DNA from: a virus | Direction: 5' to 3' (one strand) | IMG/VR virus record: IMGVR_UViG_3300046028_002144 | Span: 1 to 21,589 of that record | Length of the DNA stretch: 21,589 nucleotides | Part shown: piece by piece, positions 1 through 19,233 of the stretch | Layout: every line of letters begins with the position of its first letter | How positions within the stretch are numbered: the stretch's first letter is position 1 | Made by a program: the position numbers and the translations under genes | The notes under the pieces: generated by a model | What the model was told of the DNA's origin: nothing | Databases searched by the model: none | The model's input: the letters and a program-made list of their open reading frames with translations, nothing else

Positions 1-3000
1 AGAGAACATGTAAAACGCACCCTTTTTACCCTTGCCTACCCGCAGCCAGTAGTTGCCGTAGCGAACCAGCGGGAAGTACACCCCAATCTTCTTGGCTTCA
101 GCAAAGTCCGCGTTGATTTTAGCCAGCAACCGCGACTTGCCCGCAGCATCCATGGAAGAGTTTGCGATCATCTGGTTAAGTGTAGCGAGGCTTTCATCCA
201 GCATACGGACATAGTCGTCACGCGCCATCTGGAATATCTCGATGCCCTGCTTGCCACCCTGCTTCTCCAGCTTGTCTTTCAGCTGATACACAAACTTGAA
301 GTCGTTCTCGCGCTTGGTAATGTTGCCTTTGACCGCAGCTTTCTGCGCTTTGGACAGTGTGGGGTCCTGCAACTTCTTCTGCAACTTATCCATTTCCTCG
401 TCGGCAGCAAGGGCGGCGGCAATCGTCGGATGCACCGTAGGGTCCGCGTTCAGCAGTGTGGTGGCGTATATCAAGTTTTCCAACGTGCGCCCGGCTTCCG
501 GCTTTTCTTTCTGCCATGTAGCCCAGCCGTTGACCCGTTCAAACAGACCCCGCATCTCTTTGTTACGGAACGCGTGCATATCATCCACGCGGTCAGGTAC
601 GTTCTTGAGATTATTGAGCCTATTTCCTGCGATACGGATAACATCGTCAGTGGAGAACACCCGCAAGATAGCGTTGAGGGAGCCGATTGCAATGTTGTCG
701 AAGCGGCTAGTAAGAGCGTCCAGCACTCCGTTCTTATCTTTGCGTGTGCCGTTAATACCCGCGCCTATGGCAGAGGTAGACTCCGTAGCGCTTCTGGACT
801 TGAGAAACTTGTCTTGCACAGCGTCCTGCTTGGTTTGCTTTCTGCTCGCGGCGGCAACAACGCTGGCGGGTATATCAGCCTCCGCAGCTATAAGTAGTTC
901 GTCAGTGAGCACGATAAGGTCGGCAAACGCATTGTTGCTGTCGCCGCCAAGACCGAAGAGCCTGCGCAGGAGTCGCACAAACGACGAGAGCATACTGGGG
1001 CTATCCGGCGTGCCGATACCCGTAGGGGAGTCAATGCTAAGCAGTATGCGCTGCATAGCCGGGTGGGTCATACCATAGGTAACGAACTCACGAGGATCAC
1101 TGAACGCCCCAACCTCAAAGAACGCCTTCTCCGCATCTGTGGCAGTACCTGACACAATTTTGTTCTTCACGTGATCGGCGGCGCGGGCTTTGAGCGCCGT
1201 AAAGTCATCAAGCACAGCACGCTGCGCTTCTGTCAGCGACTCAGGGCTATCGTAATACTGCTCGATCAACCCGATCGTCGCTGCGTGCAGGGCTTCGTGC
1301 AGGAAGGTCAGGTTGTCTACGCCTTCCTCTCCGGCAATGTTGTTCAGGTAGATGACTTTACGCCCATCACTCAGTACAGCGTACAGCCCAGCAGCATTGG
1401 CACCATCACCGACAAACTCTACCCGAGCTTCTTCCGGTATCATGTTGGGGTCAGTGACAATAACCAGCTCTACACCGCGCAGGAACTGCTTGAGCCTGTT
1501 AGCCAAGGCTCGTTCAAACTTATTGCCAGTACGGGCTATGCTGTCTACCGCCTGCGTGGCGCTGCGCAAAGTAAGCAGTATGGGGTTGGGCTCAGCACTA
1601 GCAGCTACGGGTATGCGGTCTGCACGGGCTGCTTTACCTTTGGTACGTGCCTTGGTTGCTTTCTTGGTTTCCAGCACTTCAATTGAGGACAGCTCTTCGG
1701 CCCGTGCCTGAGCTGTAGTGCGCTCTTTATCAGTAACTGAAGGATGCGCAATCGTCTCTTGTGCAAGCTTACCTGCTTTAGTTTTGGCCTGTGGGTCTTG
1801 CGCCTGCACGCGGTAGGCGTTGGCCAGCCCCATGCTACGTTTATCGCGGGCTTCTATTACTGCCGTTGGAGTCGGGTCTGCAGCTACGTCTGCCTGCACA
1901 AACTTAAGCGCACTTGTCGCTGCATCGGTGCGCTCTTTAACAGCCCGCTTCGCGGCGTTAGCTTTATCCTCGACGGGTGCAGCTTCTGGTTGTGCCTCGT
2001 TTGCCGGGGCTACCGCCTCTGTACGACGGAACCCCTGCTTTACCACCGTGACTTTAGGTTGTGCCGGACCTGCGGGTGCTGGCTTTGCTTTGCCTTTCAG
2101 GGTGAGCTTAGGCTTAGGCGCTGTGGCTTCAGGTGCAACGGGCGCGCCTTCTGTAACTGCGGGTGCCTCTTGTACACTTTCCGGCGTTCCTTCGACACGT
2201 TGTGCAGTCGTGTCGATCGTGTCACCACTAAGCTCAACCGCCGTAGCCGGAGGGGCTTTTGGTTTCTTTGCCCTCGTAGGTTTCTTGGGTTCAAGGGCTT
2301 GCTCCGGGGCAGTGGTGACGGGCTCAGCTGCACGGACTTCTGATGCTACTGATGGCACAACTTCTTCTTCAACTGTAGCTTCCCGTGCAGCGCCTTCAGC
2401 TTCACTGCGGGCCACTTCGGCTTTCAGCGCGTCGAGCTCTTCTTGTGGGGTAGTGGCGGGCTTTGTGGGGGGAGTAGTCGGTGCAACTTCTTCCTCTTCT
2501 ACTGCAACATCTTTTTCCGCAGCGGTGCGTATGGCATCAGCTTCTTCTTGGGCGGCGGCTACGCGGAGTGCTTCCGACACATCCTCATCGGCCATATCTG
2601 GTGCAGCTGGTGCGACTTCGGGTTTTGCGGTAGGGGGAGTTTCAGCTGTAGGTGCTTCCTCCTCCACGTCTTCTTCGTCTTTAGCTTGCGCACGAGCCCT
2701 GAAGTCCGCAGCGATATCGGTCATCCCAAGTGCTTCTGCGTCGTTTGCCAAATCATCCAGCGCGTCCGCACTGCTTGGGCCCGTACCTTCCGACTCTACC
2801 TCAAGCGCACGCCGCGCACGCCCCGGCTCCGTAACTCCGGCAACTCCACCTAACCCCGCAGCTGCAAGGCCTTCGAGCGCCGCCGCCCCAGCTACCCCGC
2901 GCATGGTGGGTACGTCGATGCCTTCACGCTGCAGCGCTACGTTTGCTGCGTACTGTTCTTGGCCGCCTTGAGCAGCCTCTGTAGCAGTTTCAGCAGCCGC

Positions 3001-3888
3001 AGTGGTAAGGCCCTGACGCACTCGACCGCGCCCAGCCATCTCAACCATTTCTCGCCGGGTCTGTGCTGCTACCGCATCTTTGGCGGCAGCGCGGCTTGCT
3101 GCTTTACCTATGGTGGTGCGGAGCAGCGAAGGCTCAAGACCGGTACGTGAAGCAAGCGCGCCCAAGGCGGTGCCGCTAAGGATGAGCCCGAGGTTTTCCC
3201 CGCCGTAGGATTGCGCTTCTTCAGCCACTTGTGCAGCTTGCTCTTCAGGCACGCCGGCTTTGGTAAGCTCCTCTTTGACCGCATCATAGATGGAGCTTTT
3301 AACCACACCAGTACCTTGGGCGGCACCAAGTCCAAGCGCAGCGGCGGTACCAGCAAGAACTGGAGCTGCAGGGGCAAGATAAGTAGCACCAATACCGCCT
3401 AGAATAGCGGGGACTGCAGTGCCGAAAGCTTGGGTGGTAAAATCAAGCGGTGCGACCATGAAAGCTTTTGCGGCGGCTTTGACCTGCTCACCAAGCCCAG
3501 CGTCCTCTACTTCGGCCATGATGCGGGCAACTTCTTGTGAGTCCTGCTTGGACTGCGCCGACATCAAATCACCGAGGTAGTCCTCCGCTCCACGCAGTGC
3601 TGTGGACACACCAGACTCTGCACCAAAGACGTCAGAGACAAGCCTTGTGCCAGTTACGGCCCCACGAGCTAAGCCGAGCGGGAGGTCAAGGGTCTCGCGC
3701 AGTAGGTTGGATTCTACTTGAGGCTCGGGAGGCGTGTAGGTAGACAGGAACGCTGCTACTTCTTCTGGTTTATACCCAGACTCCAGCGCTGTCTGCACGT
3801 TGAAGTTGTACTGCTGCCCGAGAAACTCCGCGATCTCGGCATCGGAGTACCCAACGCTTTTTGCTTTAGCGTAGTCGAACTGCGCCAT
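1..3888 (-). CDS. Large polyvalent virion protein with zincin HExxH motif (3' end missing)
   Basis: The frame is open from ATG at 3888 to the window edge: 1,296 codons with no stop, so the C-terminus is missing. The start is supported by an AGGAG on the upstream TAG, about 10 bases away. Residues 1-45 hold helical motifs of the type GYSDAEIAEFL. Residues about 140-240 are Ala/Gly-rich and hydrophobic. Residues about 430-750 are Ala/Pro/Glu/Lys-rich and probably disordered. HEALH at 864-868 is a zinc-metallopeptidase signature, and Glu925 in FFEVGAFSDPREF is a candidate third ligand. The end is helical and closes with YFPLVRYGNYW. Giant phage proteins of this type (large polyvalent proteins, LPD families) are thought to travel in the virion and enter the host, with peptidase modules acting on host or virion proteins. 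The assignment is by motif and layout only; substrate unknown. Confidence 0.75.
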   Translation of the reverse strand, partial: MAQFDYAKAKSVGYSDAEIAEFLGQQYNFNVQTALESGYKPEEVAAFLSTYTPPEPQVESNLLRETLDLPLGLARGAVTGTRLVSDVFGAESGVSTALRGAEDYLGDLMSAQSKQDSQEVARIMAEVEDAGLGEQVKAAAKAFMVAPLDFTTQAFGTAVPAILGGIGATYLAPAAPVLAGTAAALGLGAAQGTGVVKSSIYDAVKEELTKAGVPEEQAAQVAEEAQSYGGENLGLILSGTALGALASRTGLEPSLLRTTIGKAASRAAAKDAVAAQTRREMVEMAGRGRVRQGLTTAAAETATEAAQGGQEQYAANVALQREGIDVPTMRGVAGAAALEGLAAAGLGGVAGVTEPGRARRALEVESEGTGPSSADALDDLANDAEALGMTDIAADFRARAQAKDEEDVEEEAPTAETPPTAKPEVAPAAPDMADEDVSEALRVAAAQEEADAIRTAAEKDVAVEEEEVAPTTPPTKPATTPQEELDALKAEVARSEAEGAAREATVEEEVVPSVASEVRAAEPVTTAPEQALEPKKPTRAKKPKAPPATAVELSGDTIDTTAQRVEGTPESVQEAPAVTEGAPVAPEATAPKPKLTLKGKAKPAPAGPAQPKVTVVKQGFRRTEAVAPANEAQPEAAPVEDKANAAKRAVKERTDAATSALKFVQADVAADPTPTAVIEARDKRSMGLANAYRVQAQDPQAKTKAGKLAQETIAHPSVTDKERTTAQARAEELSSIEVLETKKATKARTKGKAARADRIPVAASAEPNPILLTLRSATQAVDSIARTGNKFERALANRLKQFLRGVELVIVTDPNMIPEEARVEFVGDGANAAGLYAVLSDGRKVIYLNNIAGEEGVDNLTFLHEALHAATIGLIEQYYDSPESLTEAQRAVLDDFTALKARAADHVKNKIVSGTATDAEKAFFEVGAFSDPREFVTYGMTHPAMQRILLSIDSPTGIGTPDSPSMLSSFVRLLRRLFGLGGDSNNAFADLIVLTDELLIAAEADIPASVVAAASRKQTKQDAVQDKFLKSRSATESTSAIGAGINGTRKDKNGVLDALTSRFDNIAIGSLNAILRVFSTDDVIRIAGNRLNNLKNVPDRVDDMHAFRNKEMRGLFERVNGWATWQKEKPEAGRTLENLIYATTLLNADPTVHPTIAAALAADEEMDKLQKKLQDPTLSKAQKAAVKGNITKRENDFKFVYQLKDKLEKQGGKQGIEIFQMARDDYVRMLDESLATLNQMIANSSMDAAGKSRLLAKINADFAEAKKIGVYFPLVRYGNYWLRVGKGKKGAFYMFS

Positions 3889-5618: not shown

Positions 5619-6560
5619 TTAACCTGTTTTAGCGCCGCCGCTGGTGACAACGGGTTTCGTGCCGTCGCCGGTACCGCCCAAGGCTTTCAGCTTCGCAAAC
5701 AGCTCCAGAATACCCCCTGCCCCACCAAACAACTGACTCAACCCGGTAGGTTCTTGGTAGCTGTAGGATTCGGTCTGCAGAGGTTGGCCTTGGAGCAGGG
5801 ATTGCATGTACTGGACCATCTTGAAAGGGTAGTCGCGCTCCTCCTTAAACTGACTGTAGTCCGCCAAGATACCCTCACTATCAATGTCGCGCTGCGTGGC
5901 ACCGGCAGTCTGTTGGTTTTTGAGTATATCAAGCCCGTACGTTTGGGCTCTCTCTGCAGCTAGGCGGCGCATCTCTTCTTCTTTGTTGAACTGGTTCTGC
6001 GCGGCAGTGAAGGCGTCTTGGTAGCCTTTGCCCCTGATGTCAGCAATCCCGCGTGTGAGGTTGCGGTCCAGCTCAGATTCCATAATAGCTTGGCGCCCAC
6101 CGCCGTACGCACCGGCACGAGTCATGCGTCCTGCGTTCTGTACACGGGCAATCTCAGCGTCACGGCGGGCCTCAGTAATCTGCGGTTCCAGTGCTGCCGT
6201 AAGATACGGTGACATGTAGGAGCTTGCAGTGCCCGCCGTAGTGAAGGAGCCCGGAGTGTACGAGGTCTGCGCCGTAGTAGGCAAAGTAAGCCCTGCCAAC
6301 CCCGAGAACGCCTTGTCCTGCAGTGTGCTCGTCCCGGCAGTCAGGGGACCGGTATATGCCTCATAGGGCGTAGCTGCTAACGCCTTCCCCTTTGCCAGCA
6401 TGTCTGTAACATAGGGACCCGCCCACGAGGAGAGGGAGGACTCAGTGCCAGTTTTTGCGCCTGCTAGAGGGTCTACAGTGGTACCCGTAGTGGCTCCACC
6501 CGTATTAAAACGTGCAACGCCTATACCACTTCGCGGCAACGATTGGGGTCTATATTGCAT
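5619..6560 (-). CDS. Virion-associated protein, AGRMTRAGAYGGGRQ family
   Basis: 313 residues. The start is ATG at 6560 with a strong GAGGTGA a few bases upstream that includes the TGA of the preceding gene. The N-terminus has GVARFNTGG, one of several Gly-Gly motifs shared with neighbouring genes. Residues about 60-120 are Thr/Ala/Gly-rich. The centre (residues about 128-215) is strongly helical with the motif RMTRAGAYGGGRQAIMESE and alternating Arg/Glu, consistent with coiled coil. The C-terminus is Gly-rich. Proteins with this central motif recur next to tail and internal-virion genes in aquatic podovirus genomes as I remember them, without an assigned function. The family recognition is recall, not a search. 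An internal virion or tail-tube accessory role is inferred from position. Confidence 0.7.
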   Translation of the reverse strand: MQYRPQSLPRSGIGVARFNTGGATTGTTVDPLAGAKTGTESSLSSWAGPYVTDMLAKGKALAATPYEAYTGPLTAGTSTLQDKAFSGLAGLTLPTTAQTSYTPGSFTTAGTASSYMSPYLTAALEPQITEARRDAEIARVQNAGRMTRAGAYGGGRQAIMESELDRNLTRGIADIRGKGYQDAFTAAQNQFNKEEEMRRLAAERAQTYGLDILKNQQTAGATQRDIDSEGILADYSQFKEERDYPFKMVQYMQSLLQGQPLQTESYSYQEPTGLSQLFGGAGGILELFAKLKALGGTGDGTKPVVTSGGAKTG

Positions 6561-6568
6561 TGCTCACC

Positions 6569-7363
6569 TCACGCGGGTGTGTATTTATTGGGGTTGATCT
6601 GTCGCCCTTGCTCCGGGCGTCCGGTGCGTGCTCTGCGCACTCGGTCCATCATGTCATACAGAACTTTAGCCCCAGCTTCGGAGTTACCGTTACCGAGGTG
6701 GCTCACAATATCTGCAGGCATGACGAATTCACCGTCTGACAATGCAGCTTCCTGTGCGCCGTCGATTCTAGCAGGGACTCTATCCGCCATGCCATCAGTG
6801 GGGCCACCGAGGTAGTAACCACGGGACTCGGGTAACGACATCAGGCCACCTTGAGCTGCGGTAACAGTTGTGGTGGGGGGAACCGGAGTGTAAGTAACGT
6901 CCGAGAAATAACGGCGTCCACCGGAACCGGGGCGACGGGAAGGCATTGCTTCTTTTGGAGTGTAGGGCTTACCACGCTGTGCAGCGTACCCCATCAGCTG
7001 ATCGAAGCTCGTACCCTGACCCATAGCCTTCTGCGCCTCGGCCAACTGGATATCGGGGTTCATGCCATACTGGGTAGCCCAGTCCCGAATCTGCGAGTTT
7101 TGCAAGTTAGTGTCCACCATAGGCAGTGCGGTACGTTTAGCCGTGTACTCCGGGATGCCACCTTGGTAACCACGGGGCTGGTTAGTATTGGCTCCGCCGA
7201 GGCCGATGAATTTCTTAACGTCATCGTTGCCTAGTAAACCGATAAGCCCAGCAGCCCCAGCGCCAGTACCGAGGATTTTGGACCAGTCAAAAGTACCGTC
7301 TTTGTCTTTCCAGTCGGTAAGGAAATCTAAAAAACCGCTACTCAGCTCTTTAATTCCAGCCAT
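6569..7363 (-). CDS. Tail/virion-associated protein with LSDGEFVMPADIVSHLG motif
   Basis: 264 residues from ATG at 7363, directly after the upstream TGA (TGATATG) with GAGG five bases before. An in-frame TTG 36 bases earlier lies inside the upstream gene and is disfavoured. Residues 1-60 contain a short hydrophobic Gly/Ala/Leu stretch (about 31-45). Residues 92-136 carry IRDWATQYGMNPDIQLAEAQ and its continuation, shared with the N-terminus of the 886-residue neighbour. The C-terminal third contains GGPTDGMADRVPARIDG followed by LSDGEFVMPADIVSHLG and a final helical Arg-rich tail. I recognise that C-terminal block as common in phage structural regions, usually annotated hypothetical. The role is probably structural; a binding partner could be the 886-residue protein because of the shared motif. 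Confidence 0.72.
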   Translation of the reverse strand: MAGIKELSSGFLDFLTDWKDKDGTFDWSKILGTGAGAAGLIGLLGNDDVKKFIGLGGANTNQPRGYQGGIPEYTAKRTALPMVDTNLQNSQIRDWATQYGMNPDIQLAEAQKAMGQGTSFDQLMGYAAQRGKPYTPKEAMPSRRPGSGGRRYFSDVTYTPVPPTTTVTAAQGGLMSLPESRGYYLGGPTDGMADRVPARIDGAQEAALSDGEFVMPADIVSHLGNGNSEAGAKVLYDMMDRVRRARTGRPEQGRQINPNKYTPA

Positions 7364-7372
7364 ATCAACCTC
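7364..7372 (-). promoter_or_regulatory. Ribosome binding site deciding the start at 7363
   Basis: On the coding strand GAGG lies five bases before the ATG and overlaps the end of the upstream gene. This supports ATG at 7363 over the longer TTG-initiated frame at 7399. Confidence 0.6.
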
Positions 7373-10025
7373 GCAGGAGCTGCATAGCCAGCTCAACAAT
7401 ATCTACTTGCCCACCTTGTGCGTATCCTACACCACGTAGGTTCTTGATCCTAGCCAAGTTCTTGTCCTCTTCACTCTCGGGTTCCATCTTTGGTGCAAAG
7501 ATACTCTCGCCGCCAACGTCGTATAGGTAGTCGATCTCGGCCAGCTCGCCCGGAGTTGTAGTTACGGTGCGGTATTGAGGCGTGAACCCCATGCCACCCC
7601 CTCCAGTGCACTCCTCAAAGTTTAGAGCGAAGTAAAGAGGATCGTCGCAGCCTTTAGGTGGAGGTGGCGGAGGCGGAGGTGGCGGAGGTGGCGGCGTAGT
7701 TTCGCACTTCTCCGGGTTGTTCATGGCGTACACCGGGTCGCTGCAGTTCTCAACCACTAGACCGCACTTCGCCGGGTTCTCAGCTGCATAGACTTTATCG
7801 CTGCAATCCTGAGGCGGAGGCGGAGGTGGCGGAGGCGGAGGCGGCGGAGGCGGCGGAGGCGTACCGTAGCACTCTTCTAGGTTCTCAGCTGCATAAGCGG
7901 GGTTGTCGCAATCCTGAGGCGGCGGAGGCGGCGGAGGCGGAGGCGTACCGTAGCACTCTTCTAGGTTCTCAGCTGCATAAGCGGGGTTGTCGCAATCCTG
8001 AGGCGGCGGAGGCGTACCGTAGCACTCTTCCGGATTTTGGTTTGCATAGACTGTATCGCTGCAATCCTGAGGCGGCGGAGGTGGCGGAGGCGGAGGCGGA
8101 GGTGGCCGAGGCGTACCGTAGCACTCTTCCGGATTTTGGTCTGCATAAGCTTGATTGCTGCAGTCCTGAGGCGGCGGAGGCGGAGGCGGAGGTGGCCGAG
8201 GCGTACCGTAGCACTCTTCCGGATTTTGGTCTGCATAAGCTTGATTGCTGCAGTCCTGAGGCGGCGGAGGCGGAGGCGGAGGTGGCGGAGGTGGCGGAGG
8301 CGGCGGAGGCGTACCGTAGCACTCTTCTGGGTTCTGAGCTGCATAGACTTTATCCTCACAACCTACTGGAGGCGGAGGCGGCGGAGGTGGAGGCGGAGGC
8401 GTACCGTAGCACTCTTCTGGGTTCTGAGCTGCATAGACTGGATCGCTGCAGCCCTGAGGCGGAGGTGGAGGCGGCTCTGGTTCCTGAGGAGTATCTTCGC
8501 GTTTATTTGCGTCTTGCCACCTACGGTTTACTTCTTCTACCGATACCCCGGTTGCTTCGGCAATATCTTCCGGGCTAACCCCGTAAGTTTCAGCAGCTTT
8601 ACGTATTTCTTTATCGGTGGCGCCTTTGTTTTTGCGCAGCCACTCGCGTATTTGTTCGCTCAGAGTAGGGCCGGTGCCAACGGTTACTTTGTCTGTACCG
8701 TCACCTCCGATAGTGGTATCCGTACCTTGTCCTCCAGCAGTGGTATCCGTGCCTTGGCCACCCGTTACAGTGCTTGTGGTAGAGCCAGTAGTGGTGGTGC
8801 GAGCAGTCGGGTCTTTGAATACATTGCTCAAAACACCAATAACAGTTTCGACTGGGAACCCTGTCGCACGTTCTACTTCGCCAATCAGGACACCATAAAC
8901 GCTTTCGTTAATAGGCCCGGTGCTTTGCCCGAGCACCCTTCGTATAGCTTCATCCACCGCAGGAATACCAGTAGTGGCCCCTACGGAAACTTCTTTTTTG
9001 CCGTATTTACCGAGGTCAATTACTTCAGTGGCGCCGGGCAGTTGGCTTCTATCAATAGTCCTATCGCCCCAGTCAACATTGCCTGTTACACCACCCGGAC
9101 CAAAGATAACGCTAAAAATAGAACTCGGGTCTTCCCAGATTTGCCCGGGCAGCGACAGTACGTCTTTGACGTAGTCTACTGGGGCGAGTGAATTTCCTGC
9201 AGGTGTGGTAGCGGTAGCGGGTGCCTGCGCACTAGGTTTACCAAACCGGTCTACTACTGTCTGCGGGTTGCGCATGTAGTCAGAAATAAGTCCAAACGCT
9301 AACTCTTGTGCAATGTCACTAGGGTTTACTTGGCCAGACTCAAGAGCCATGTTGATGTCACCCGGGTACAGTCCAGCTAGAGTAGCCATACCCTCTGGGG
9401 TGTAGAGCATTTCGTTGATATTGTCGGGCGAGTAGATAGAGAATGGGTCGATCCCTGCCTGCTGTAACCCCTGTATAGCAGCTTCGTATTTAGCCGCTGC
9501 CTCACCTTGGCGGGCGTCGCGGCGGGCACCAAAATACTTATTTAGGAAGTTGGCGATCTGAAGCGGGGCAGCAATACTGCCGAGGATACCCCCTATCCCA
9601 GTAGCCCCCGTGTCGAGGGGGGTTACACCGGCGCCGATGGGGCTCGCAGGTACTGCTTGGCCGGGGAGGAATATCCCTGTATTTGGTATTTGCGACGACA
9701 GATACGCCCTAGTAGCGGCTTGTTGCGCAGCGTTAGTTGCAGCGCCGCTCAGTAGGCTGTTAGCCCCAGACGTAGCAAGAAGCCCCGCCACAGTGTCGGT
9801 GACGTCGTTGGTGTCCATGTAGCTAGGTGCGGTATACGGAGCAGGTGCAGGAGCTGAATACGGCGTGTAAGGCACTCCCCTCTGCTCGGCTATGCCCAGC
9901 AGGTCATCAAACGTCATGCCCTTAGCAACGCCGCGCTGGGCCTCAGCAAGCTGGGTATCCGGGTTCAACTTATACCCGGTAGCCCACTCACGGATCATTT
10001 GCTCTTGGTCGGGGGTTAAAGCCAT
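7365..10025 (-). CDS. 886-residue virion protein with Cys-pair modules on polyproline linkers
   Basis: Start ATG at 10025 has GAGGTGAG immediately upstream. Residues 11-55 carry IREWATGYKLNPDTQLAEAQ and its continuation ending in PYTP, shared with the next gene. Residues about 60-430 form an Ala/Gly/Pro-rich structural region. Residues about 430-452 hold short repeats of the type GGQGTDTT. A second helical motif, IREWLRKNKGATDKEIRKAA, then GVSPEDIAEATGVSVEEV follows at about 453-505. Residues about 515-806 hold ten modules of the form C-x12-C (typically CSDPVYAAQNPEEC), most ending YGTP and separated by proline runs of about 4-17. The C-terminal ~80 residues are non-repetitive and end with GYAQGG and a Leu-rich helix. 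Polyproline rods with disulfide-sized modules suggest an extended virion spike or spacer. Function unknown. Long proline runs would normally need elongation factor EF-P in the host. Confidence 0.75.
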   Translation of the reverse strand: MALTPDQEQMIREWATGYKLNPDTQLAEAQRGVAKGMTFDDLLGIAEQRGVPYTPYSAPAPAPYTAPSYMDTNDVTDTVAGLLATSGANSLLSGAATNAAQQAATRAYLSSQIPNTGIFLPGQAVPASPIGAGVTPLDTGATGIGGILGSIAAPLQIANFLNKYFGARRDARQGEAAAKYEAAIQGLQQAGIDPFSIYSPDNINEMLYTPEGMATLAGLYPGDINMALESGQVNPSDIAQELAFGLISDYMRNPQTVVDRFGKPSAQAPATATTPAGNSLAPVDYVKDVLSLPGQIWEDPSSIFSVIFGPGGVTGNVDWGDRTIDRSQLPGATEVIDLGKYGKKEVSVGATTGIPAVDEAIRRVLGQSTGPINESVYGVLIGEVERATGFPVETVIGVLSNVFKDPTARTTTTGSTTSTVTGGQGTDTTAGGQGTDTTIGGDGTDKVTVGTGPTLSEQIREWLRKNKGATDKEIRKAAETYGVSPEDIAEATGVSVEEVNRRWQDANKREDTPQEPEPPPPPPQGCSDPVYAAQNPEECYGTPPPPPPPPPPPVGCEDKVYAAQNPEECYGTPPPPPPPPPPPPPPPPPQDCSNQAYADQNPEECYGTPRPPPPPPPPPQDCSNQAYADQNPEECYGTPRPPPPPPPPPPPPQDCSDTVYANQNPEECYGTPPPPQDCDNPAYAAENLEECYGTPPPPPPPPPQDCDNPAYAAENLEECYGTPPPPPPPPPPPPPPPPQDCSDKVYAAENPAKCGLVVENCSDPVYAMNNPEKCETTPPPPPPPPPPPPPKGCDDPLYFALNFEECTGGGGMGFTPQYRTVTTTPGELAEIDYLYDVGGESIFAPKMEPESEEDKNLARIKNLRGVGYAQGGQVDIVELAMQLLRG
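7608..8474 (-). repeat. Ten Cys-pair modules alternating with polyproline tracts
   Basis: In-frame coding repeat. Ten modules each contain two cysteines 13 positions apart, and most are followed by YGTP and a run of CCN/CCT proline codons (GGN-type triplets on the given strand). Units near 7880-8010 and near 8130-8280 are almost identical pairs, whereas the last two or three units are degenerate (AENPAKC, MNNPEKC, LNFEEC). Proline-tract length differs from unit to unit, as expected for slippage-prone triplet DNA. Confidence 0.9.
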
Positions 10026-10033: not shown

Positions 10034-10684
10034 TCAAGGCAAAACAGGTAGCACTTCGGGGAGTGCTGAAATAAAGAACACCGCAACCACAGCAGACGAT
10101 ATGCCCGGGTGGGGAGAGGTAGCCGCTATGTGGTCCAGAGACAGGTCAATGTCGTCACCGGTCCAGTACAGCTCGATGTAGCTACCCGCCTGCAGGTCAA
10201 TGATGAAGTTCCAGTTAACCTCAAGGATAGCGGTGGAGCCTGAGACTTTGTACTCCTGTGCTGAGTAACCAACGTCTACACCGTCTCGGGCAATCCACAA
10301 GTAGACAATCTTGGACGAGCTACTATCACTACGCACTTGCCCAGTAAACTGGATATTGTAGATGCCTGAGTACTCCACAGTGATCTCAGATGTAGTAGCT
10401 CCGTTAATCGTAATGGCGTTATCCAGATACGTCTGGTTGAACCGCACCGGCTGTCCGACGTCCACCGTGTCAAGCGCTTGGTCACCTGTGTCAAAGAACA
10501 GCGCGTTGGGCACCTGCAGGAACCTACCCCCGTTCTCCCCAACCAACGAGTTAACCGCGTTACCTATCCCGTTGAAAAACAGACGCAGTATGTTGTTGAG
10601 CGCATCCATGAAGCCCTTCAGGGGCGACGGCGGCGCTACAGGCAACGCGGGGGGTGAAGTTTTACCCAGCAGGCGAGCGCTCAT
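10034..10684 (-). CDS. Virion protein with C-terminal jelly-roll-like (TNF/C1q-type) domain
   Basis: 216 residues. The ATG overlaps the TGA of the upstream structural gene (ATGA), indicating translational coupling. The N-terminus is Pro-rich (LGKTSPPALPVAPPSP), followed by a helical segment FMDALNNILRLFFNGIGNAV that could insert into a trimer core or a partner. From about residue 75 the sequence is beta-rich with alternating hydrophobics: ITVEYSGIYNIQFTGQV, KIVYLWIARDG, AGSYIELYWTGDD, then AVVAVFFIS. The pattern of G-x-Y followed by an inner strand, a 'W(I)xRDG' segment and a late hydrophobic strand resembles TNF/C1q-like jelly rolls used at phage tips. Such domains trimerise and bind glycans or receptors; here that is inferred from pattern only. 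Confidence 0.65.
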   Translation of the reverse strand: MSARLLGKTSPPALPVAPPSPLKGFMDALNNILRLFFNGIGNAVNSLVGENGGRFLQVPNALFFDTGDQALDTVDVGQPVRFNQTYLDNAITINGATTSEITVEYSGIYNIQFTGQVRSDSSSSKIVYLWIARDGVDVGYSAQEYKVSGSTAILEVNWNFIIDLQAGSYIELYWTGDDIDLSLDHIAATSPHPGISSAVVAVFFISALPEVLPVLP

Positions 10685-12528
10685 GTGCCTCTACGACCAT
10701 CAAGCTTCATATCCAGACGCGACGCGCCCAGCTGCCACGAGACCCCAAGCGCAGTAGACTCAACCCGCATGGCGAACTGCCTGCCTCTTATACGGGTGAA
10801 CACCTGCCCAGTAAACTTCTCTATGGGTATCGTAGCAGTCCTAGTGATAGCGTTGCTGCTGTTGCCACCTTCGGATAGCGGCGAGTTGTACCCAGAGCCT
10901 GAGTTCGACAAAGGCAGTAATGTCATCGTGATAGCAGGACTATCCGCCGTGGAGCCTTCAAATGTTACGTCTGGTAACACCCGGTTAATGAGCACGAAGT
11001 GGTCACCGTCGTCCATGTCAAACTCGGAAGACAGAATATAAGCATTGATCGGGAACGCCGTGCCGGTCTCGTTGCAGTCCGTGCCAATCTCTTGGAGCAC
11101 GAGGTTGTGGCTGTAGGTAGCAGCGATAGGGTAGTCCCTCAGCTTGGCGTCGATCCACGCTGTGCGGCGTAAAGTGCCGTAATGCCACAAGTTTTCCACA
11201 TAGTTATACACAACGTAGCGATCAACCTCAGTAGAATCCGCCGAGCAGTAGAACCACCACACCTCGTTGAAGGACTGGTTGGTGCCTGCAAACACTTGGT
11301 AGTACTGATCTTGGTTGAAGTCGGTGAAGACATACCGGCGCACGTCGCAAGGCAGTGGCACCACAGTACCGTCGTAGCGGTAGAATTTGTCACGCCCCAT
11401 CCAGTACGCGATGCTGTTGGCGTAGACCACGGAGTTGGGCCCGGCGATCGAGATGTTGTCACCCAGAATCTGCGCACCCCAGACATCCGGCGCACCGAGG
11501 TACTGTAGTGAGTACAAGGACGTGTCAGTCCACACCAGTATCTCTTGGCGTGCCTGCAGGGCGGAGATGATTTGTGCCCCACGAGACAGACGCAGCGATC
11601 CAGCTTGGTTGGTGGCGCTAGGCGTCCACATCCCGGCGTCTTCTTGATCTGACCAACGGATCAGCATGGGGTCTAGCACCGAGCTGCCAATCTCGTTACA
11701 GCCAAACGCCAGCACGAACCGATTGATGTCTGAGACCACAGCGTAGTTCACCACCGTAGGGACGTCGGACGCCCCGCCAAGAGAGGACACATTGACTGCC
11801 CGAGTGGCAACGCCACTGGAGGCATCCCAGTAGAATAAACCGCCGCCACGGGCGGCAAAGATCAAGTCCTCACCAAAGTTGGACTGACTCCACAAGCGCA
11901 TCTCGACAGTTGTAGTGCCGCCGAACCCCCACGTACCAAGCCCAAAACCCCCGGCGCTCCACCCTGAGAACGGCACGGCTAACTCGTTACCTATGTTGAT
12001 CTGGTAAGCCGCAGTGACCGTACCCCCGCCGTTTGCAGTGCTGCTGGCGTTAGAGGATGCCGTGATATTGTAAGTGTTAGCAGTAAGCACGGTGATCTCG
12101 AACTCACCGTTCAGAGTAAGCCCACCCACTGCTGTAGCACCACTAAAGGTAACAAAGTCCCCCGTAATACCCCCGTGGGCTGTGTCAGTAACCAGCACGA
12201 TAGGAGAGCCGTTTGTTGTGTCGAAGGGGTCTGTCAGGGTTACAGAGCTACGTATAGGGGTGACGTCGTAGTATGCACCGCCGCGCTCAATGTAGAACTT
12301 AAGGTTGGTGCCCACCCCGATGAGGTTCTGACCCCCAAGGGTTACCCAGTTAAACAGCGATCGGCAGACACCTAAGAATGTCTCAGACGAGAAACGCTGC
12401 CACCCACCGATCTTCTCAGGGGTGCCTTGGCGGAAGCGAACTTTGTCAGACTCATACCACTTACCCTCGTTAGCGTAGCGGGTATTTTCTCTGTTCACGC
12501 CCGGGGTTATCTGGACTTTCTTAAGCAT
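10681..12528 (-). CDS. Large beta-rich virion structural protein (tail hub/stabilisation-like)
   Basis: 615 residues from ATG at 12528, 35 bases after the endolysin stop. The N-terminus MLKKVQITPGVNRENTRY plus ESDKVRFRQGTPEKIGGWQR is a signature I recognise from many aquatic podovirus genomes. The body is beta-rich with many Gly, Thr and Trp residues and recurring patterns such as LIGVGTNLKFYI, NLIFAARGGGLFYWD, EILVWTDTSLYSLQYLG and EVWWFYCSADS, which look like successive blades. It could be a tail hub or a P22 gp10-like packaged-DNA stabilisation protein. The segment at residues about 95-175 (VTDTAHGGITGDFVTFSGAT) resembles an inserted Ig-like or ubiquitin-activating-like beta domain common in tail proteins. 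It is translationally coupled to the following jelly-roll gene. The structural role is likely, the exact position in the virion uncertain. Confidence 0.72.
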   Translation of the reverse strand: MLKKVQITPGVNRENTRYANEGKWYESDKVRFRQGTPEKIGGWQRFSSETFLGVCRSLFNWVTLGGQNLIGVGTNLKFYIERGGAYYDVTPIRSSVTLTDPFDTTNGSPIVLVTDTAHGGITGDFVTFSGATAVGGLTLNGEFEITVLTANTYNITASSNASSTANGGGTVTAAYQINIGNELAVPFSGWSAGGFGLGTWGFGGTTTVEMRLWSQSNFGEDLIFAARGGGLFYWDASSGVATRAVNVSSLGGASDVPTVVNYAVVSDINRFVLAFGCNEIGSSVLDPMLIRWSDQEDAGMWTPSATNQAGSLRLSRGAQIISALQARQEILVWTDTSLYSLQYLGAPDVWGAQILGDNISIAGPNSVVYANSIAYWMGRDKFYRYDGTVVPLPCDVRRYVFTDFNQDQYYQVFAGTNQSFNEVWWFYCSADSTEVDRYVVYNYVENLWHYGTLRRTAWIDAKLRDYPIAATYSHNLVLQEIGTDCNETGTAFPINAYILSSEFDMDDGDHFVLINRVLPDVTFEGSTADSPAITMTLLPLSNSGSGYNSPLSEGGNSSNAITRTATIPIEKFTGQVFTRIRGRQFAMRVESTALGVSWQLGASRLDMKLDGRRGT

Positions 12529-12563: not shown

Positions 12564-13043
12564 CTACGACAAAAACAGCGCTTGCTCTTCCAGCCTGCGT
12601 CGGGTCAATCCCGGTAGTACTCGGCCCCCGCCCTTGTTCCACTTGGGGAACTCTGCTGCTGCACCGGAGATGTCCCCCCGGTTGTACTTCATCCGCAGGG
12701 TAGATGACTGCAAGCTACCGAGACCCACGTTGAAAGCGAAGGAAACCAAGGCATCGAAATGTGACTGGCTATTAAAAGCGCTAGGGCACAGTCTAAGTAC
12801 ACCTGTCTCAAACCGAGTAAGATCGCTCCTAAGAATCGCATCAACGCCCCCGTCGGTCCAGATTTTGTCATGTTCGGGTCTTAGTGGGTACGCCTTGCGC
12901 TCTTCGAGTTTCAGTTTAGCCTGTTCTGGGTACAGCACGTGGCCGTAACCAATCGTCCAAAGCAGGGCAGGGCAGAGGTACGGCTTAAGTCGTAGCCCTT
13001 CATGATGTTTCATCAGCCCAACGGCAGCGTCAGACGTTTTCAT
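12564..13043 (-). CDS. Endolysin, T4-type lysozyme (glycoside hydrolase family 24)
   Basis: 159 residues. Cleaves the glycan strands of peptidoglycan to release progeny. The N-terminal active-site block is HEGLRLKPYLCPALLWTIGYGH: Glu15, then Cys24 and Thr30, fitting the E-8aa-(D/C)-5aa-T triad spacing of T4-like lysozymes, with Cys in place of the common Asp. Downstream FDALVSFAFNVGLGSLQSST and WNKGGGRVLPGLTRRR are the expected family blocks. Length is that of a single-domain GH24 enzyme, with no cell-wall-binding domain. No N-terminal hydrophobic signal-anchor is visible, so a holin is expected to release it. The start ATG overlaps the TGA of the holin-like gene (ATGA), indicating coupled expression. 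Confidence 0.93.
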   Translation of the reverse strand: MKTSDAAVGLMKHHEGLRLKPYLCPALLWTIGYGHVLYPEQAKLKLEERKAYPLRPEHDKIWTDGGVDAILRSDLTRFETGVLRLCPSAFNSQSHFDALVSFAFNVGLGSLQSSTLRMKYNRGDISGAAAEFPKWNKGGGRVLPGLTRRRLEEQALFLS

Positions 13044-14638: not shown

Positions 14639-15069
14639 GACGGCTTCGGGTACTGCGCTTTAACTGCGTCAATTTTTGCCTGCATCGCTGCTGCGTCTGC
14701 ACCACCCTTCCACTGCGCATCCAACTGGTCCCCGATTGACGGATAGGCAGCACGGCGCTGTGCAAAATAGTCGGGCATCGTAGGGCGTACAACTTCGGAC
14801 TTATCAATCGCTACCGTCGTGGTCCCGCCAGTGAAGGGGTCTTCGACTTCACGGGTCTTTGGTTCAAGCGCCGCCCACTCAGCTTCCTTGGCGTCAATTT
14901 CAGCTTTTACGCTGCTCTCTTGGGTGGCCAAGAAGGTCTGCAGCTCCATGCCGGGCGGAATGAACCGCTGCCAGTCGTAGGTCTGACCGTTGTGGATGAC
15001 TTTCAGGTAAGTCAAGGCGCGAGACTCCTCACCGCCCACGGTGCCCAACCCTTCCAGTGATATGCTCAT
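14629..15069 (-). CDS. Small tail-associated protein with YPSIGDQLDAQWKGG motif
   Basis: 146 residues, with ATG overlapping the TGA of the glycosyltransferase/methyltransferase gene (ATGA). The N-terminal ~50 residues are beta-rich (ALTYLKVIHNGQTYDWQRFI). The centre is Ala/Glu-rich and helical (SSVKAEIDAKEAEWAALEPK). The C-terminus contains RRAAYPSIGDQLDAQWKGG and AAMQAKIDAVKAQYPKP. The C-terminal 'YPSIxDQLDAxW' block occurs in many phage proteins encoded beside tail fibres (XkdW-like or tail-fibre-assembly-like annotations). A fibre assembly or attachment role is plausible because of its place after the adhesin genes, but it has not been shown here. Confidence 0.65.
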   Translation of the reverse strand: MSISLEGLGTVGGEESRALTYLKVIHNGQTYDWQRFIPPGMELQTFLATQESSVKAEIDAKEAEWAALEPKTREVEDPFTGGTTTVAIDKSEVVRPTMPDYFAQRRAAYPSIGDQLDAQWKGGADAAAMQAKIDAVKAQYPKPSWI

Positions 15070-16439
15070 GCAGCCTCCTTATACGCTTCGAGTCTAAAGT
15101 TCTTGCCGGGATGCGCCCCGATAACAGGCAGCACCTGAATACCCTTAAAGCCAACCACACTGCACAGCGCGGATAGCGTTTCAGGCGTGTAGCCCCACAG
15201 ATGCGGGGACAAAGCACCCTTCTCTTGCGTCTCAGGAGTAACATAGTCTACGTACGCCCCGAACATACACATAGCGGCTGTGTGCTTTTCTTCGCCAGTC
15301 TTGGATATGAAGTCTTCGCACAGGGCTTCCAGATCAGGAGTTTCCAGTACGATTTTACCACCCGGCTTCAAGGTGTCGTACCACTTACCAAGCACTTCAG
15401 AGGCGCGGTGCTGCGGCAGGTGTTCAATCACATGACTCGCAAGAATCTCGTCTGCGCAGTTCTCAGGCAGATCAAGCTTTGTGATGTCCTGCTTGATGTC
15501 AGCAGCCTCACCGTACATATCTACGCCCATGTAGCCATCAACGCGATCTTGGCCGCAGCCCATGTTAAAGCGGATCGGCTGACCTTCCTCAAACATTTTG
15601 GCAAGTACGGACTTGTAACCAGTCTTAGCCCCAGTGCCCTCGGGCAAACGGTCATGCCATCGGCGATCAATAAACTCTTTGTCGTCCAGCGTCAGCGGTC
15701 GGGTAGGCTTGATGTTGGTGTAGTAGTTCTTCAGGTCAACTGAGGGGTGCGCTGTGTACAGCCCGGTTGCCAAGTCCATGTGCAGGCACTGTACGTCGGT
15801 GTTGACCAGCAGCTTTGTGCCACGCTTATGCAGCCGGTGGACGAAAAAATTGTCCTCACCGATGAACGGGATGATACCTTTTGGGCCTTCTACCTGACTG
15901 CCAATGCAGGTAAACGGCAGGTCGGGGGCTTCGTCTTTCATTGCGCGCAGCAGGTCAATGGGGATCATCATCACGTCCATGCCTGTCTGCCACGCATCAA
16001 TCAGTTGGCCGGGGTCTACGTTAGGGATTGTGATCCAGTCGCCGTTGCGTACCATAATCATCGCGTCAGAGCACTTGATGTAGTAAACACCCGTGACTAC
16101 CGCGTCGGGGTTTTTCTCAGCGGTTTCGTGTAATACTTTGAAGCCGTTGTACGGCAGAACCGTGTCCTCACCGATAAACAGAAGATACTTGGCCCCAGAG
16201 CTGAGGGCTTGCTCCATCAGGTAATTTCGCGCTACGTCTACTTTCTCACCGCCAATGTTCACAAACCCGTGGGAGAACCCCATCAGGTCAATGTGCAGAC
16301 CTTCGTACCCATCAAAGTTCTGGGCAGCGGTTTCGTTCAAGTCACGCCTTGGCTGCGCAATCAGCACATAGGGCGCTATCGACTTGGATTCGTCGTAGAT
16401 TTCCTGCATGACATCAATGATCTTGTCTCGGTTGTACAT
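15066..16439 (-). CDS. Glycosyltransferase-like / SAM-dependent methyltransferase two-domain protein
   Basis: 457 residues from ATG at 16439, preceded by GAGGAG on the stop codon of the last propeller gene. The N-terminal domain (about 1-260) looks like a GT-A glycosyltransferase: a central hydrophobic strand ending in an acidic pair, KYLLFIGEDTVLP (84-96), and a later GEDNFFVHRLHKRG (194-207). The C-terminal domain (about 288-457) is a class I methyltransferase: motif I FNMGCGQDRVDGYMGVDM (291-308), Asp318, HVIEHLP (336-342) and LKPGGKIVLETPDLE (357-371). Such fusions modify sugars or proteins. Sitting between adhesin and lysis genes, it could modify virion fibres or host surface glycans. 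The domain assignment is firm for the methyltransferase and good for the transferase; donor and acceptor are unknown. Confidence 0.8.
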   Translation of the reverse strand: MYNRDKIIDVMQEIYDESKSIAPYVLIAQPRRDLNETAAQNFDGYEGLHIDLMGFSHGFVNIGGEKVDVARNYLMEQALSSGAKYLLFIGEDTVLPYNGFKVLHETAEKNPDAVVTGVYYIKCSDAMIMVRNGDWITIPNVDPGQLIDAWQTGMDVMMIPIDLLRAMKDEAPDLPFTCIGSQVEGPKGIIPFIGEDNFFVHRLHKRGTKLLVNTDVQCLHMDLATGLYTAHPSVDLKNYYTNIKPTRPLTLDDKEFIDRRWHDRLPEGTGAKTGYKSVLAKMFEEGQPIRFNMGCGQDRVDGYMGVDMYGEAADIKQDITKLDLPENCADEILASHVIEHLPQHRASEVLGKWYDTLKPGGKIVLETPDLEALCEDFISKTGEEKHTAAMCMFGAYVDYVTPETQEKGALSPHLWGYTPETLSALCSVVGFKGIQVLPVIGAHPGKNFRLEAYKEAA

Positions 16440-16448: not shown

Positions 16449-17828
16449 TCAGAACTTGTTGAAAAAGGGCGACAAAGCATAACCCGGGTTGGTAGGAACT
16501 CCAGTGGATATTTTTTGGCCTCTGTTGGCGTTAAAAGGTACGAAGTGTATGTCACCGTTAGGAGCCAAAACGCCGCCTGAATATGCGTTTGATGCTGTGG
16601 ACACCAATGAGTAAGTAGAGACTACGCCCGCAGCAGATATCTTCTGACCCCTATCTGCAAACCCATTAACAAAATGGATGTCACCATTTGGTGCAAGTGC
16701 GCCGCCTCGATATGCTTCTGCTGCGGTGTAGACTAGTGAATATGTTGATACCACTCCAGCTGCCGAAATTTTCTGACCTCGGTTGGCACTATGCGGAACA
16801 AAGTGTATGTCACCGTTAGGGGCAAGAACGCCACCAAAATAGGCAATGTTAGCTGTATAGACCAAACTGTAGGTAGACACCACGCCTGCTGCAGATATTT
16901 TTTGACCAACCGCCGCACTGTGAGGGATAAAATGAATATCTCCGTTAGGGGCTAGAACACCACCTGCGTAAGCACCAGTTGTTGTGTAAACAAGAGAATA
17001 TGTTGAAACTACGCCAGCAGCAGATACCTTTTGCCCCCTATTCCCGCTGAAAGGAATAAATTGAATATCGCCATTTGGGGCAAGGACGCCACCTTGATAC
17101 CTTTGAATGCCTGACTCATAGACTAGGGAGTAAGTCGAGACAACCCCAGATGCGGAGATTTTTTGACCTCTATCGGCATTATGCGAAACAAAATGAATAT
17201 CTCCGTTAGATGCTAAAACACCGCCTTCATAAGCGGCAGATTCCGTATAAACCAGTGAATAGGTGGAAACAACTCCAGCAGAGTTTATCTTTTGACCCCT
17301 TACAGCGTAGTTTGGAACAAAGTGAATGTCACCGTTGGGAGCTAGAACACCGCCAGCGTATGCTGCTATTGCCGTGTAGACCAACGAGTAGGTACTTACG
17401 ATACCGCCAACACCGTTGTTGTTGAACGGCGCACCGTTAATCACCCCTGCATCCAGCGTCTTCTTCAGGTTTGTCCAAGCAACCAAATCAGTGCCGACTG
17501 AGGAGTTATCTCCCGTGGGTACAGTACCCGGCGTAGCGTCAGCGGGGAACGTGACGAATACATCCTTCGTGCCAGCAGCCCAGTCAACAGCGTTGTTGCT
17601 GTTGCTTGATTCCAAAATAGTGTCGCGGCTCAGTGTCGTGCCGGATGAGGTGTATGTCCCAATGCCCAGTTCCCAGTCAGTGCCGTCGGTGATGCAGTAG
17701 TAAGTCTGGTTGGTGTCACCGATAACCGAGAAGTCTTGAAACCCCACAGCAGCAGAACCCAGCGTAAACGTGCCAGTGCCAGTTGTTGTGCTGGTGACCT
17801 TAACTCTGTCTTTGACTACGAATGCCAT
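16449..17828 (-). CDS. Seven-repeat propeller-like tail protein, paralogue 3
   Basis: 459 residues, ATG nine bases after the stop of paralogue 2 with AAGGA upstream. Residues 1-141 form the shared N-terminal domain (RVKVTSTTTGTGTFTLGSA, TLSRDTILESS, DWAAGTKDVFVTFPA), a type widespread in phage tail proteins and presumed to anchor to the virion. Residues 142-442 are seven repeats of about 43 residues with the core STYSLVY...GGVLAPNGDIHFVP...RGQKISAAG. Repeat 3 is one residue longer (ESGIQRYQGG), and repeats 2 and 6 have core substitutions (LASNG, FVNGF). The C-terminus ends LSPFFNKF. At DNA level its repeats differ more from each other than those of paralogues 1 and 2. Seven units of this length fit a closed seven-bladed beta-propeller; receptor binding is inferred. 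Confidence 0.8.
   Translation of the reverse strand: MAFVVKDRVKVTSTTTGTGTFTLGSAAVGFQDFSVIGDTNQTYYCITDGTDWELGIGTYTSSGTTLSRDTILESSNSNNAVDWAAGTKDVFVTFPADATPGTVPTGDNSSVGTDLVAWTNLKKTLDAGVINGAPFNNNGVGGIVSTYSLVYTAIAAYAGGVLAPNGDIHFVPNYAVRGQKINSAGVVSTYSLVYTESAAYEGGVLASNGDIHFVSHNADRGQKISASGVVSTYSLVYESGIQRYQGGVLAPNGDIQFIPFSGNRGQKVSAAGVVSTYSLVYTTTGAYAGGVLAPNGDIHFIPHSAAVGQKISAAGVVSTYSLVYTANIAYFGGVLAPNGDIHFVPHSANRGQKISAAGVVSTYSLVYTAAEAYRGGALAPNGDIHFVNGFADRGQKISAAGVVSTYSLVSTASNAYSGGVLAPNGDIHFVPFNANRGQKISTGVPTNPGYALSPFFNKF
16503..17405 (-). repeat. Seven in-frame propeller repeats (paralogue 3)
   Basis: Seven coding units of 129 bases (one of 132; the last lacks one codon). Protein cores are nearly identical while third codon positions differ widely, so the protein scaffold is kept by selection rather than by recent duplication alone. 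Confidence 0.93.
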
Positions 17829-17837
17829 AGTGAGTCC

Positions 17838-19220
17838 TTAAAACTTGTTCAGGTAGCTGCTAAGGCAGACATCGGATGGTAAGGGAATGGCTGGGCAGGT
17901 GGAGATTTTCTGGCCTCGGTCGGCGCTACGGGGCACAAAATGTATGTCTCCGTTGGGAGCTAGGACACCGCCAAAGTATGCGCTTGATGTTGTATACACC
18001 AGCGAGTAAGTTGAAACAACGCCTGCGGCTGATATCTTCTGGCCTCTGTTGGCGTCTTGGGGCACAAAATGTATATCCCCGTTGGGAGCTAGAACACCCC
18101 CAGCGTATGCGCCTCCCGCTGTGTACACCAGCGAGTAAGTTGAAACTACTCCAGCTGCGGATATCTTCTGACCCCGGTTGGCTGAATAAGGTACGAAGTG
18201 TATGTCCCCATTAGGGGCTAAGACGCCGCCAGCGTATGCGTTTACTGTTGTGTACACCAGCGAGTAAGTTGAAACTACTCCAGCCGTAGATATCTTCTGA
18301 CCCCGGTCGGCGCCAACCGGAACGAAGTGGATGTCACCGTTGGGAGCTAGAACACCCCCAGTGTATGCGGTTGTTGTCGTGTAGACCAGTGAGTATGTAG
18401 AGACTACTCCAGCGGCAGATATCTTCTGACCTCTGTTGGCGTCTCGAGGCACAAAGTGTATATCCCCGTTGGGAGCAAGGACACCACCGGAGTATGCGTT
18501 TGTTACCGTGTACACCAGCGAATAGGTTGAGACTACTCCAGCTGCGGATATCTTCTGACCTCTGTTGGCGTTATAAGGCACAAAGTGTATATCCCCATTT
18601 GGGGCTAGGACACCGCCCCAGTATGCGGCTACTGCTGTGTAAACCAGCGAATAAGTTGAAACTACTCCAGCAGCAGATATCTTCTGACCTCGGTCCGCTA
18701 CATAAGGCACAAAGTGTATATCCCCGTTGGGAGCTAGGACGCCTCCGATGTATGAGTTTGATGCTGTGTACACCAAAGAATACGTACTTACGATACCGCC
18801 AACACCGTTGTTGTTAAACGCACTGCCGCCCTGAACGCTTTTGTTCAGCTTCTTCTGGAAGTTCTCAAATGCAACGCCGTCTGTGCCGATGCTGCTGTTG
18901 TCTGCGGTAGCGTTAGAGCCTTGCGTGCCCTCTGCAGGAAACGGAATGAAGACTGCTTTAATCCCAATCGCCCAGTCAATCCTAGCGCCACTGCTGCTTG
19001 AGTCCAGCACCTCATCACGCGACAGGGTTGTACCAGAGGCGGTGTACGTACCAATGCCCACCTCCCACGCTATGTTATTCGTGATGGTGTAGTAGGTCTG
19101 GTTGCCATCGCCTACCCCGGAAAAGTCTTGGTAGCCCTCAAACGCAGCACCAAGCGTCAGAGTCCCTGTCCCGGTAGTGTCGGTCGTTACTTTTGCTCGG
19201 TCACGGAGTACGAAAGTCAC
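17838..19220 (-). CDS. Seven-repeat propeller-like tail protein, paralogue 2 (GTG start)
   Basis: 460 residues. The start is GTG at 19220, eight bases after an AGGAG that overlaps the stop of paralogue 1. Residues 1-141 are the shared N-terminal domain (AKVTTDTTGTGTLTLGAA, TASGTTLSRDEVLDSSS), and residues 142-441 are seven repeats. The C-terminal tail is CPAIPLPSDVCLSSYLNKF, with two cysteines absent from paralogue 3. Within repeats the residues after VYT (VTN, TTT, TVN, AGG, TSS, AVA), the residue before GG (I, W, S, T, A, A, F) and those after FVP (YV, YN, RD, VG, YS, QD, RS) vary, while the rest is almost fixed. A fibre tip or receptor-binding role is inferred from neighbours and architecture. 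Confidence 0.82.
   Translation of the reverse strand: MTFVLRDRAKVTTDTTGTGTLTLGAAFEGYQDFSGVGDGNQTYYTITNNIAWEVGIGTYTASGTTLSRDEVLDSSSSGARIDWAIGIKAVFIPFPAEGTQGSNATADNSSIGTDGVAFENFQKKLNKSVQGGSAFNNNGVGGIVSTYSLVYTASNSYIGGVLAPNGDIHFVPYVADRGQKISAAGVVSTYSLVYTAVAAYWGGVLAPNGDIHFVPYNANRGQKISAAGVVSTYSLVYTVTNAYSGGVLAPNGDIHFVPRDANRGQKISAAGVVSTYSLVYTTTTAYTGGVLAPNGDIHFVPVGADRGQKISTAGVVSTYSLVYTTVNAYAGGVLAPNGDIHFVPYSANRGQKISAAGVVSTYSLVYTAGGAYAGGVLAPNGDIHFVPQDANRGQKISAAGVVSTYSLVYTTSSAYFGGVLAPNGDIHFVPRSADRGQKISTCPAIPLPSDVCLSSYLNKF
17898..18797 (-). repeat. Seven in-frame propeller repeats (paralogue 2)
   Basis: Seven 129-base coding units, the last one codon short. Unit 3 carries a variable block identical to one in paralogue 1, and unit 5 has a 55-base block nearly identical to one in paralogue 1, indicating exchange between genes. 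Confidence 0.93.
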
Positions 19221-19233
19221 TGGGCGCTCTCCT
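19221..19233 (-). promoter_or_regulatory. Ribosome binding site for the GTG start at 19220
   Basis: AGGAG at 19229-19233 on the coding strand overlaps the TAG stop of the previous paralogue and lies eight bases before GTG. The good match supports GTG as the true start, giving an N-terminus (MTFVLRDR) aligned with MALVLKNR and MAFVVKDR of the sister genes. Confidence 0.7.

Follow-up and report, generated by a model that had tools for sequence, protein, structure and literature searches.

We have found that an 886-aa protein of an uncultured podovirus-like phage contains ten two-cysteine modules of the form C-x12-C, strung together for the most part by runs of proline. The window, i.e. the whole stretch of DNA that was analysed (21,589 nucleotides), is a 21.6-kb fragment of this phage with its genes on the minus strand. 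Judging from comparison with orthologues, the array is how one lineage fills a variable slot and not a feature that the family conserves. We put at about an even chance the reading that it would serve as a stiff, length-variable, disulfide-pinned spacer in a protein of the P22-like podovirus tail/DNA-ejection block, perhaps one that is ejected.

The array protein and its modules

The features of the array protein are as follows.

7365..10025 (-), array protein, 886 aa (open reading frame; dN/dS; synteny with L125, L132, L047 and L175)
9876..10025 (-), N-terminal three-helix domain, residues 1-50 (AlphaFold pLDDT about 90; motif also in the 276-aa neighbour)
8493..8666 (-), four-helix HTH-like domain, residues 454-511, directly upstream of the array (AlphaFold pLDDT 95+; weak HTH-type HMM matches, below cut-off)
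7608..8474 (-), polyproline/two-Cys array: ten C-x12-C modules and nine proline runs of 4-17
8409..8450 (-), module 1, CSDPVYAAQNPEEC
8319..8360 (-), module 2, CEDKVYAAQNPEEC
8211..8252 (-), module 3, CSNQAYADQNPEEC, DNA identical to module 4
8121..8162 (-), module 4, CSNQAYADQNPEEC
8022..8063 (-), module 5, CSDTVYANQNPEEC
7953..7994 (-), module 6, CDNPAYAAENLEEC, DNA identical to module 7
7869..7910 (-), module 7, CDNPAYAAENLEEC
7764..7805 (-), module 8, CSDKVYAAENPAKC, followed by a non-proline linker
7704..7745 (-), module 9, CSDPVYAMNNPEKC
7608..7649 (-), module 10, CDDPLYFALNFEEC
7497..7535 (-), conserved C-terminal signature IDYLYDVGGESIF, common to all orthologues (alignment A1; 47 viral stretches, 39 distinct proteins)

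All 20 cysteines of this reading frame fall within ten exact C-x12-C pairs, in full agreement with the ten modules counted in the initial annotation, whereas 20,000 shuffles of the same protein gave a mean of 0.43 such pairs and a maximum of 4. The frame is coding, with a dN/dS of 0.28 over the first 517 codons against a 95% identical relative (L001), and the opposite-strand ORFs lying over the array (7826-8578 and 8037-9191) were discarded as shadows of the repeats. The cysteines span 8450-7608, position 8474 being the start of the proline run that precedes module 1. In order, the proline runs measure 6, 11, 17, 9, 12, 4, 9, 16 and 13 residues (97 run prolines), and thus the annotated range of 4-17 holds, but modules 8 and 9 are linked by GLVVEN and not by proline. 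Likewise, the annotated core YAAQNPEEC is found as such in modules 1 and 2 only. Tested against the pattern C-x-[DN]-[PA]-x-Y-A-x-x-N-P-x-x-C, both cysteines and their x12 spacing are conserved in 10/10 modules of the window; departures from the core consist of Q, T or K in place of P4 in modules 2-5 and 8, L in place of P11 in modules 6 and 7, and F at positions 7 and 11 of module 10.

In Pfam and NCBIfam no family matched the array protein above cut-off, PHROG offered nothing convincing, and none of 50,697 phage records matched. Its full-length AlphaFold model was poor (pLDDT 63, pTM 0.29), and a fold search with it returned no usable match.

CCC is absent from the 97 run prolines, yet it is the commonest proline codon (92/259) in the other genes of the window. 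This absence may reflect selection against frameshifting or the mere spread of a CCG-CCT unit. As a general signature against frameshifting, however, CCC avoidance was rejected, since it is clear in the window (0/97 versus 11/54), partial in the distant orthologue L170 and not seen in L047 or L150; moreover, CCT-C, which according to published work is also selected against, is common in the proline runs. On the plus strand, the region over the array (7660-8480, +) is rich in (GGN)n, which could form G-quadruplexes and be a source of replication slippage.

A hypervariable slot within a conserved gene order

In reading order, the window encodes a lysozyme, gp10-like and 216-aa proteins, the array protein, its 276-aa neighbour, a DNA-ejection-like protein, one of 582 aa and finally a very long protein. 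The neighbours with assigned features are listed below.

12564-13043, lysozyme
10681..12528 (-), gp10-like 'stabilization'/virion structural protein (PHROG 3287, 9.4e-73)
10034..10684 (-), 216-aa protein with a BclA_C-like domain, encoded where P22 has its tail-needle gene (Pfam BclA_C, 8.8e-9, marginally under the cut-off)
6569..7399 (-), 276-aa neighbour with an SDGEFVMPAD...LGNGNS C-terminal domain (21 relatives)
5619..6560 (-), 313-aa DNA-ejection-like protein (PHROG 4287, 6.4e-7)

Wherever flanking sequence is available, the order gp10-like gene, 216-aa gene, array protein, 276-aa gene and ejection genes is kept, as in L125, L132 and L047, and its upstream half in L175. Needle-like (~220 aa) and SDGEF/ejection genes flank the array-protein orthologue on both sides in the window, L125 and L132; the L047 orthologue is preceded by the gp10-like gene and followed by the SDGEF gene, and in L175 the upstream side is seen. 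From this gene position and order we infer that the array protein is part of the virion.

Several other genes of the window deserve comment. The 276-aa neighbour carries the opening motif of the array protein (R[DE]WAT.Y..NPD.QLAEAQ......FD.L...A.QRG.PYTP), and this resemblance suggests an old duplication or a domain exchange. The protein of more than 1296 aa encoded at 1-3888 (-), cut by the window end, resembles a virion RNA polymerase in PHROG (2.2e-18) and comes close to the threshold for an LPD39 domain, and is probably a large polyvalent ejected protein. At 16449-20614 (-) lie three tandem paralogues of ~460 aa, each with six to seven repeats of ~45 aa (GVVSTYSLVYT..AY.GGVLAPNGDIHFVP); the two that were scanned both match the Vgb_lyase propeller family, and the three may represent exchangeable tail-fibre tips. 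Also among the tail genes, at 15066-16439 (-), a 457-aa protein bears a C-terminal methyltransferase domain (Methyltransf_11), its N-terminal part of ~290 aa giving no domain match.

The C-terminal signature YLYD[IV]GGESIF occurs in 39 distinct proteins of viral contigs, often followed by a GG..D..LLRG tail (alignment A1), and the window protein shows both. The slot preceding the signature is hypervariable among these orthologues. Its fillings include Gly/Thr-rich repeats, LDT-type repeats, a PTPTPT stretch (L154) and a lone run of 15 prolines without cysteine (L047). In two orthologues (L136 and L150) polyproline is combined with a different two-Cys module, CPDGQERNAAGIC, and three others (L125, L132 and L098) hold the same C-x12-C module arrayed with GTKTDP linkers. 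One orthologue (L092) contains exactly one C-x12-C module and two cysteines, and another, from a distant branch (L170), has four modules with proline runs of 19, 10, 8, 33 and 17. A tree built from the constant parts implies at least seven changes of filling state and sets L170 outside the clade of the window, a placement that its long branch makes unsure. Of 32 complete orthologues, 19 are free of cysteine; the rest have an even number (12) or just one (L054). Cysteine is thus missing from most orthologues and proline runs from many, and the core function of the protein requires neither. Part of what the initial annotation named as counting against it, namely homologues without conserved cysteines or without any proline linkers, was therefore observed, many positional orthologues having no cysteine at all and others carrying Cys modules without prolines.

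Isolated phages yielded no relevant tblastn match, whether the query was the complete array protein, its modules, its C-terminus or the Cys-rich proteins of the second lineage described below. The gp10-like neighbour matched distant podoviruses, and inspection of five of them, including DSL-LC04, revealed no array in the genes read.

Comparison with the three nearest relatives of the window (L001, L175 and L046) indicated that the array itself varies, apparently quickly. The gp10-like proteins of L001 and L175 are 97.7% and 94.8% identical to that of the window, and the 276-aa neighbour in L046 is 94% identical. L001 carries the first two modules of the window in swapped order (41/42 bases), with linkers of 12 and 9; linkers in L175 are 6, 6 and 6; and in the L046 array the linkers are short and modules of two kinds occur. 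Set against the 11, 17, 9, 12, 4, 9 and 16 of the window, these values bear out the earlier proposal of length-variable DNA. The contigs of all three relatives end inside the array, as expected because short reads cannot resolve such repeats. Within the window, module 3 equals module 4 and module 6 equals module 7 in 42/42 bases, and such identity of adjacent modules indicates recent duplication. As a related observation, L084 and L102 are the two ends of one contig (IMGVR_UViG_3300034418_002344), both lying inside the same kind of module array, and it appears that the array broke the assembly of an otherwise circular genome.

The C-x12-C module and the pairing of its cysteines

Beyond this lineage, C-x-[DN]-P-x-Y-A-A-x-N-P-x-E-C is, as far as pattern and profile searches reveal, a recurrent unit undescribed in protein-family libraries and found mostly in uncultured viral contigs. 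The module pattern was detected in 72 viral stretches versus 8 in about 85,000 bacterial and archaeal genomes, a contrast that is only rough given the different sizes of the collections. Modules gave nothing above cut-off against Pfam, NCBIfam and PDB domains, and Foldseek gave no match with the module model. Most viral matches belong to Cys-rich proteins of a second uncultured podovirus lineage (L042, L026, L021, L120 and others), whose genes adjoin those for a holin, a tail protein (tail adaptor) and a gp10-like protein. These proteins share with the array protein the C-x12-C module, often with a proline/glycine stretch and a short, conserved C-terminal end right after it, as well as the proximity to tail genes, but they differ in having many further Cys modules (up to 118 Cys) and an unlike C-terminal tail. 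Homology of the two tails (PGELAEIDYL versus PELLARQEFPITDYL) looked plausible by eye and was dropped after hhalign returned a probability of 0.3. In two of the Cys-rich proteins (L134 and L109) the modules are linked by long EPEPEP repeats that resemble TonB linkers. As for the bacterial matches, a 9.4-kb contig of a Verrucomicrobiales MAG (L075) has an open frame with four C-x12-C modules and may be of phage origin, binned with the bacterium, and two others (L077 and L081), with the motif, a signal-peptide-like start and odd Cys counts, were set aside as unrelated.

Throughout the collected proteins, the core Y-[AF]-x-x-[NH]-P is accompanied by both cysteines at the C-x12-C positions in 204/207 cases and by a first cysteine shifted by one in 3/207; because the patterns used to pick the loci demanded the second cysteine, the count is biased for a single module in each locus and not for the rest. 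An even number of cysteines was found in 43/45 non-redundant complete module proteins (range 2 to 118), the odd pair being the bacterial L077 and L081; one even protein (L079) is also from a bacterial genome, which leaves 42 even cases from viral contigs or the window, partly non-independent owing to relatedness. In gp10-like controls from the same contigs, 24 counts were even and 10 odd. Parity also holds within the family, 12/13 complete orthologues with any cysteine having an even count, and in the orthologue with one module and two cysteines only intramodule pairing is available within the chain. An AlphaFold model of a three-module segment (23 aligned rows) gave a helix-kink-helix in every module, with a mean pLDDT of 85 and a pTM of 0.36, values indicating that the modules are confidently modelled and their mutual arrangement is not. 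Taken together, the conservation of the cysteine pairs, the even parity, the single-module orthologue and the predicted helix-kink-helix favour one disulfide within each module as the best reading. The small disulfide loops of the initial annotation are thus supported by 204/207 cores and by 43/43 even counts with L077 and L081 set aside, and the structure prediction it had called for yielded the helix-kink-helix in each module.

Other uses of the cysteines fit these data less well. Bonding between different copies, which would lock a multimeric tail or conduit as in the tail of phage Milano, finds a precedent in the extensive virion disulfide networks described in PMC10811340 and would suit the many cysteines per chain; we consider it very improbable, since strict even parity and constant C-x12-C spacing favour pairing within modules, as do the single C-x12-C module of L092 and the single other two-Cys module of L136 and L150. 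Binding of zinc or iron-sulfur in place of disulfides can be discounted almost entirely: paired cysteines do occur together with acidic residues, but the window modules have neither a His ligand position nor CxxC, each offers two thiols, single-module proteins exist and no metal-domain HMM matched.

Possible function and comparison with known systems

The protein would consist of small N-terminal helical domains and a conserved C-terminal tail, with the hypervariable spacer in between. Each 14-residue module would form a pair of N-capped mini-helices, [DN]-P-x-Y-A-A-x followed by N-P-E-E-C, held together by a disulfide between its own cysteines, and polyproline II linkers would join the modules into a stiff, extended strand. 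Proline runs are in general expected to form stiff PPII rods and to depend on EF-P for their synthesis. The polyproline II helix rises 0.31 nm per residue, and at this value the 97 run prolines alone would reach about 30 nm. Unequal recombination and slippage in the repeated DNA would rapidly reset the array length. Less certainly, the protein could be ejected with the other internal proteins and, by analogy with the proline-rich TonB rod that spans the periplasm, could bridge this oxidising compartment as a tether or spacer; it is there that the disulfides would form. A point against this reading is that phage proteins are made in a reducing cytoplasm, and disulfides could therefore arise only once the cell has lysed or the protein has been ejected. 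Extended linkers recur in the slot or between modules as EPEPEP (L134, L109), PTPTPT (L154) and GTKTDP (L125). As published background, podovirus ejection proteins form a trans-periplasmic conduit (PMC8402733), a stiff polyproline helix of TonB spans the periplasm (PMC10907165), and ribosome stalling at polyproline runs with rescue by EF-P is well established (PMC4176338, PMC11611912).

Whether such a strand works inside or outside the virion, or does anything specific, bears on two further explanations, both of which we regard as unlikely. If the protein were an external adhesive or decorative tail fibre, a proline stalk would display its Cys loops as variable binding knobs; receptor-binding and decoration proteins do resemble it in their hypervariable repeat arrays and module shuffling, the Cys-rich protein of the second lineage sits between holin and tail adaptor genes, and an oxidising exterior would suit disulfides. 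However, the module faces are near-invariant (Y, A, N and P in the core) while the linkers vary, the opposite of variable knobs; the N-terminal helices, the conserved C-terminal tail and the ejection-gene setting fit an internal protein better, and tail-fibre-like genes with propeller-type repeats are found elsewhere in the window. Alternatively, the slot might tolerate any soluble, extended low-complexity sequence, modules and prolines having multiplied through slippage and recombination without serving any particular mechanical purpose, a situation compatible with the Gly/Thr-rich, PT, LDT-type or polyproline repeats of the orthologues, with the Cys-free proline run of L047 and with recent duplication of adjacent modules. 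Drift, however, would preserve neither both cysteines in 204/207 cores nor even parity in 43/43 proteins (again without L077 and L081), and modules and extended linkers combine repeatedly in distant lineages (L170; EP repeats in L134). The spacer reading could be extended to a redox-set injectable rod, packed reduced and flexible in the head, ejected into the periplasm, and oxidised there by host Dsb enzymes into a stiff, module-pinned polyproline strut whose evolvable repeat number would match the envelope spacing of the host, a proposal that is decidedly speculative and that we rate below either of these two explanations.

Apart from its function, the data reveal an unlisted two-Cys module that turns up in numerous uncultured phages and points to a hypervariable slot within an otherwise conserved protein of podoviruses. 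Should the spacer prove to be ejected, its natural length and linker variants would offer a series for asking how conduits match the bacterial envelope, and whether phage infection depends on the host disulfide and EF-P machinery.

The order of the P22-type ejection block is gp10-gp26-gp14-gp7-gp20-gp16, and the window resembles it in having gp10-like, then needle-like, then ejection-type genes. The array protein differs in that neither its sequence nor its fold matched a P22 ejection protein (Pfam, PHROG and NCBIfam gave nothing significant, and no fold match linked it to gp7, gp14, gp16 or gp20), and no counterpart of the Cys/proline slot was found there. With the TonB and TolA rods it shares a long polyproline or EP-type linker between small end domains (PMC10907165), EP being the linker between modules in L134 and L109; in contrast, there is no sequence relation, no TonB-family match to the TonB C-terminal domain was obtained in Pfam or NCBIfam, TonB has no Cys modules, and the periplasmic location of the array protein is presumptive. 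Finally, the tail of phage Milano (PMC10811340) offers a precedent for structurally important virion disulfides; those bonds lie in a contractile tail, whereas the bonds predicted here would lie within 14-residue modules of a short-tailed phage.
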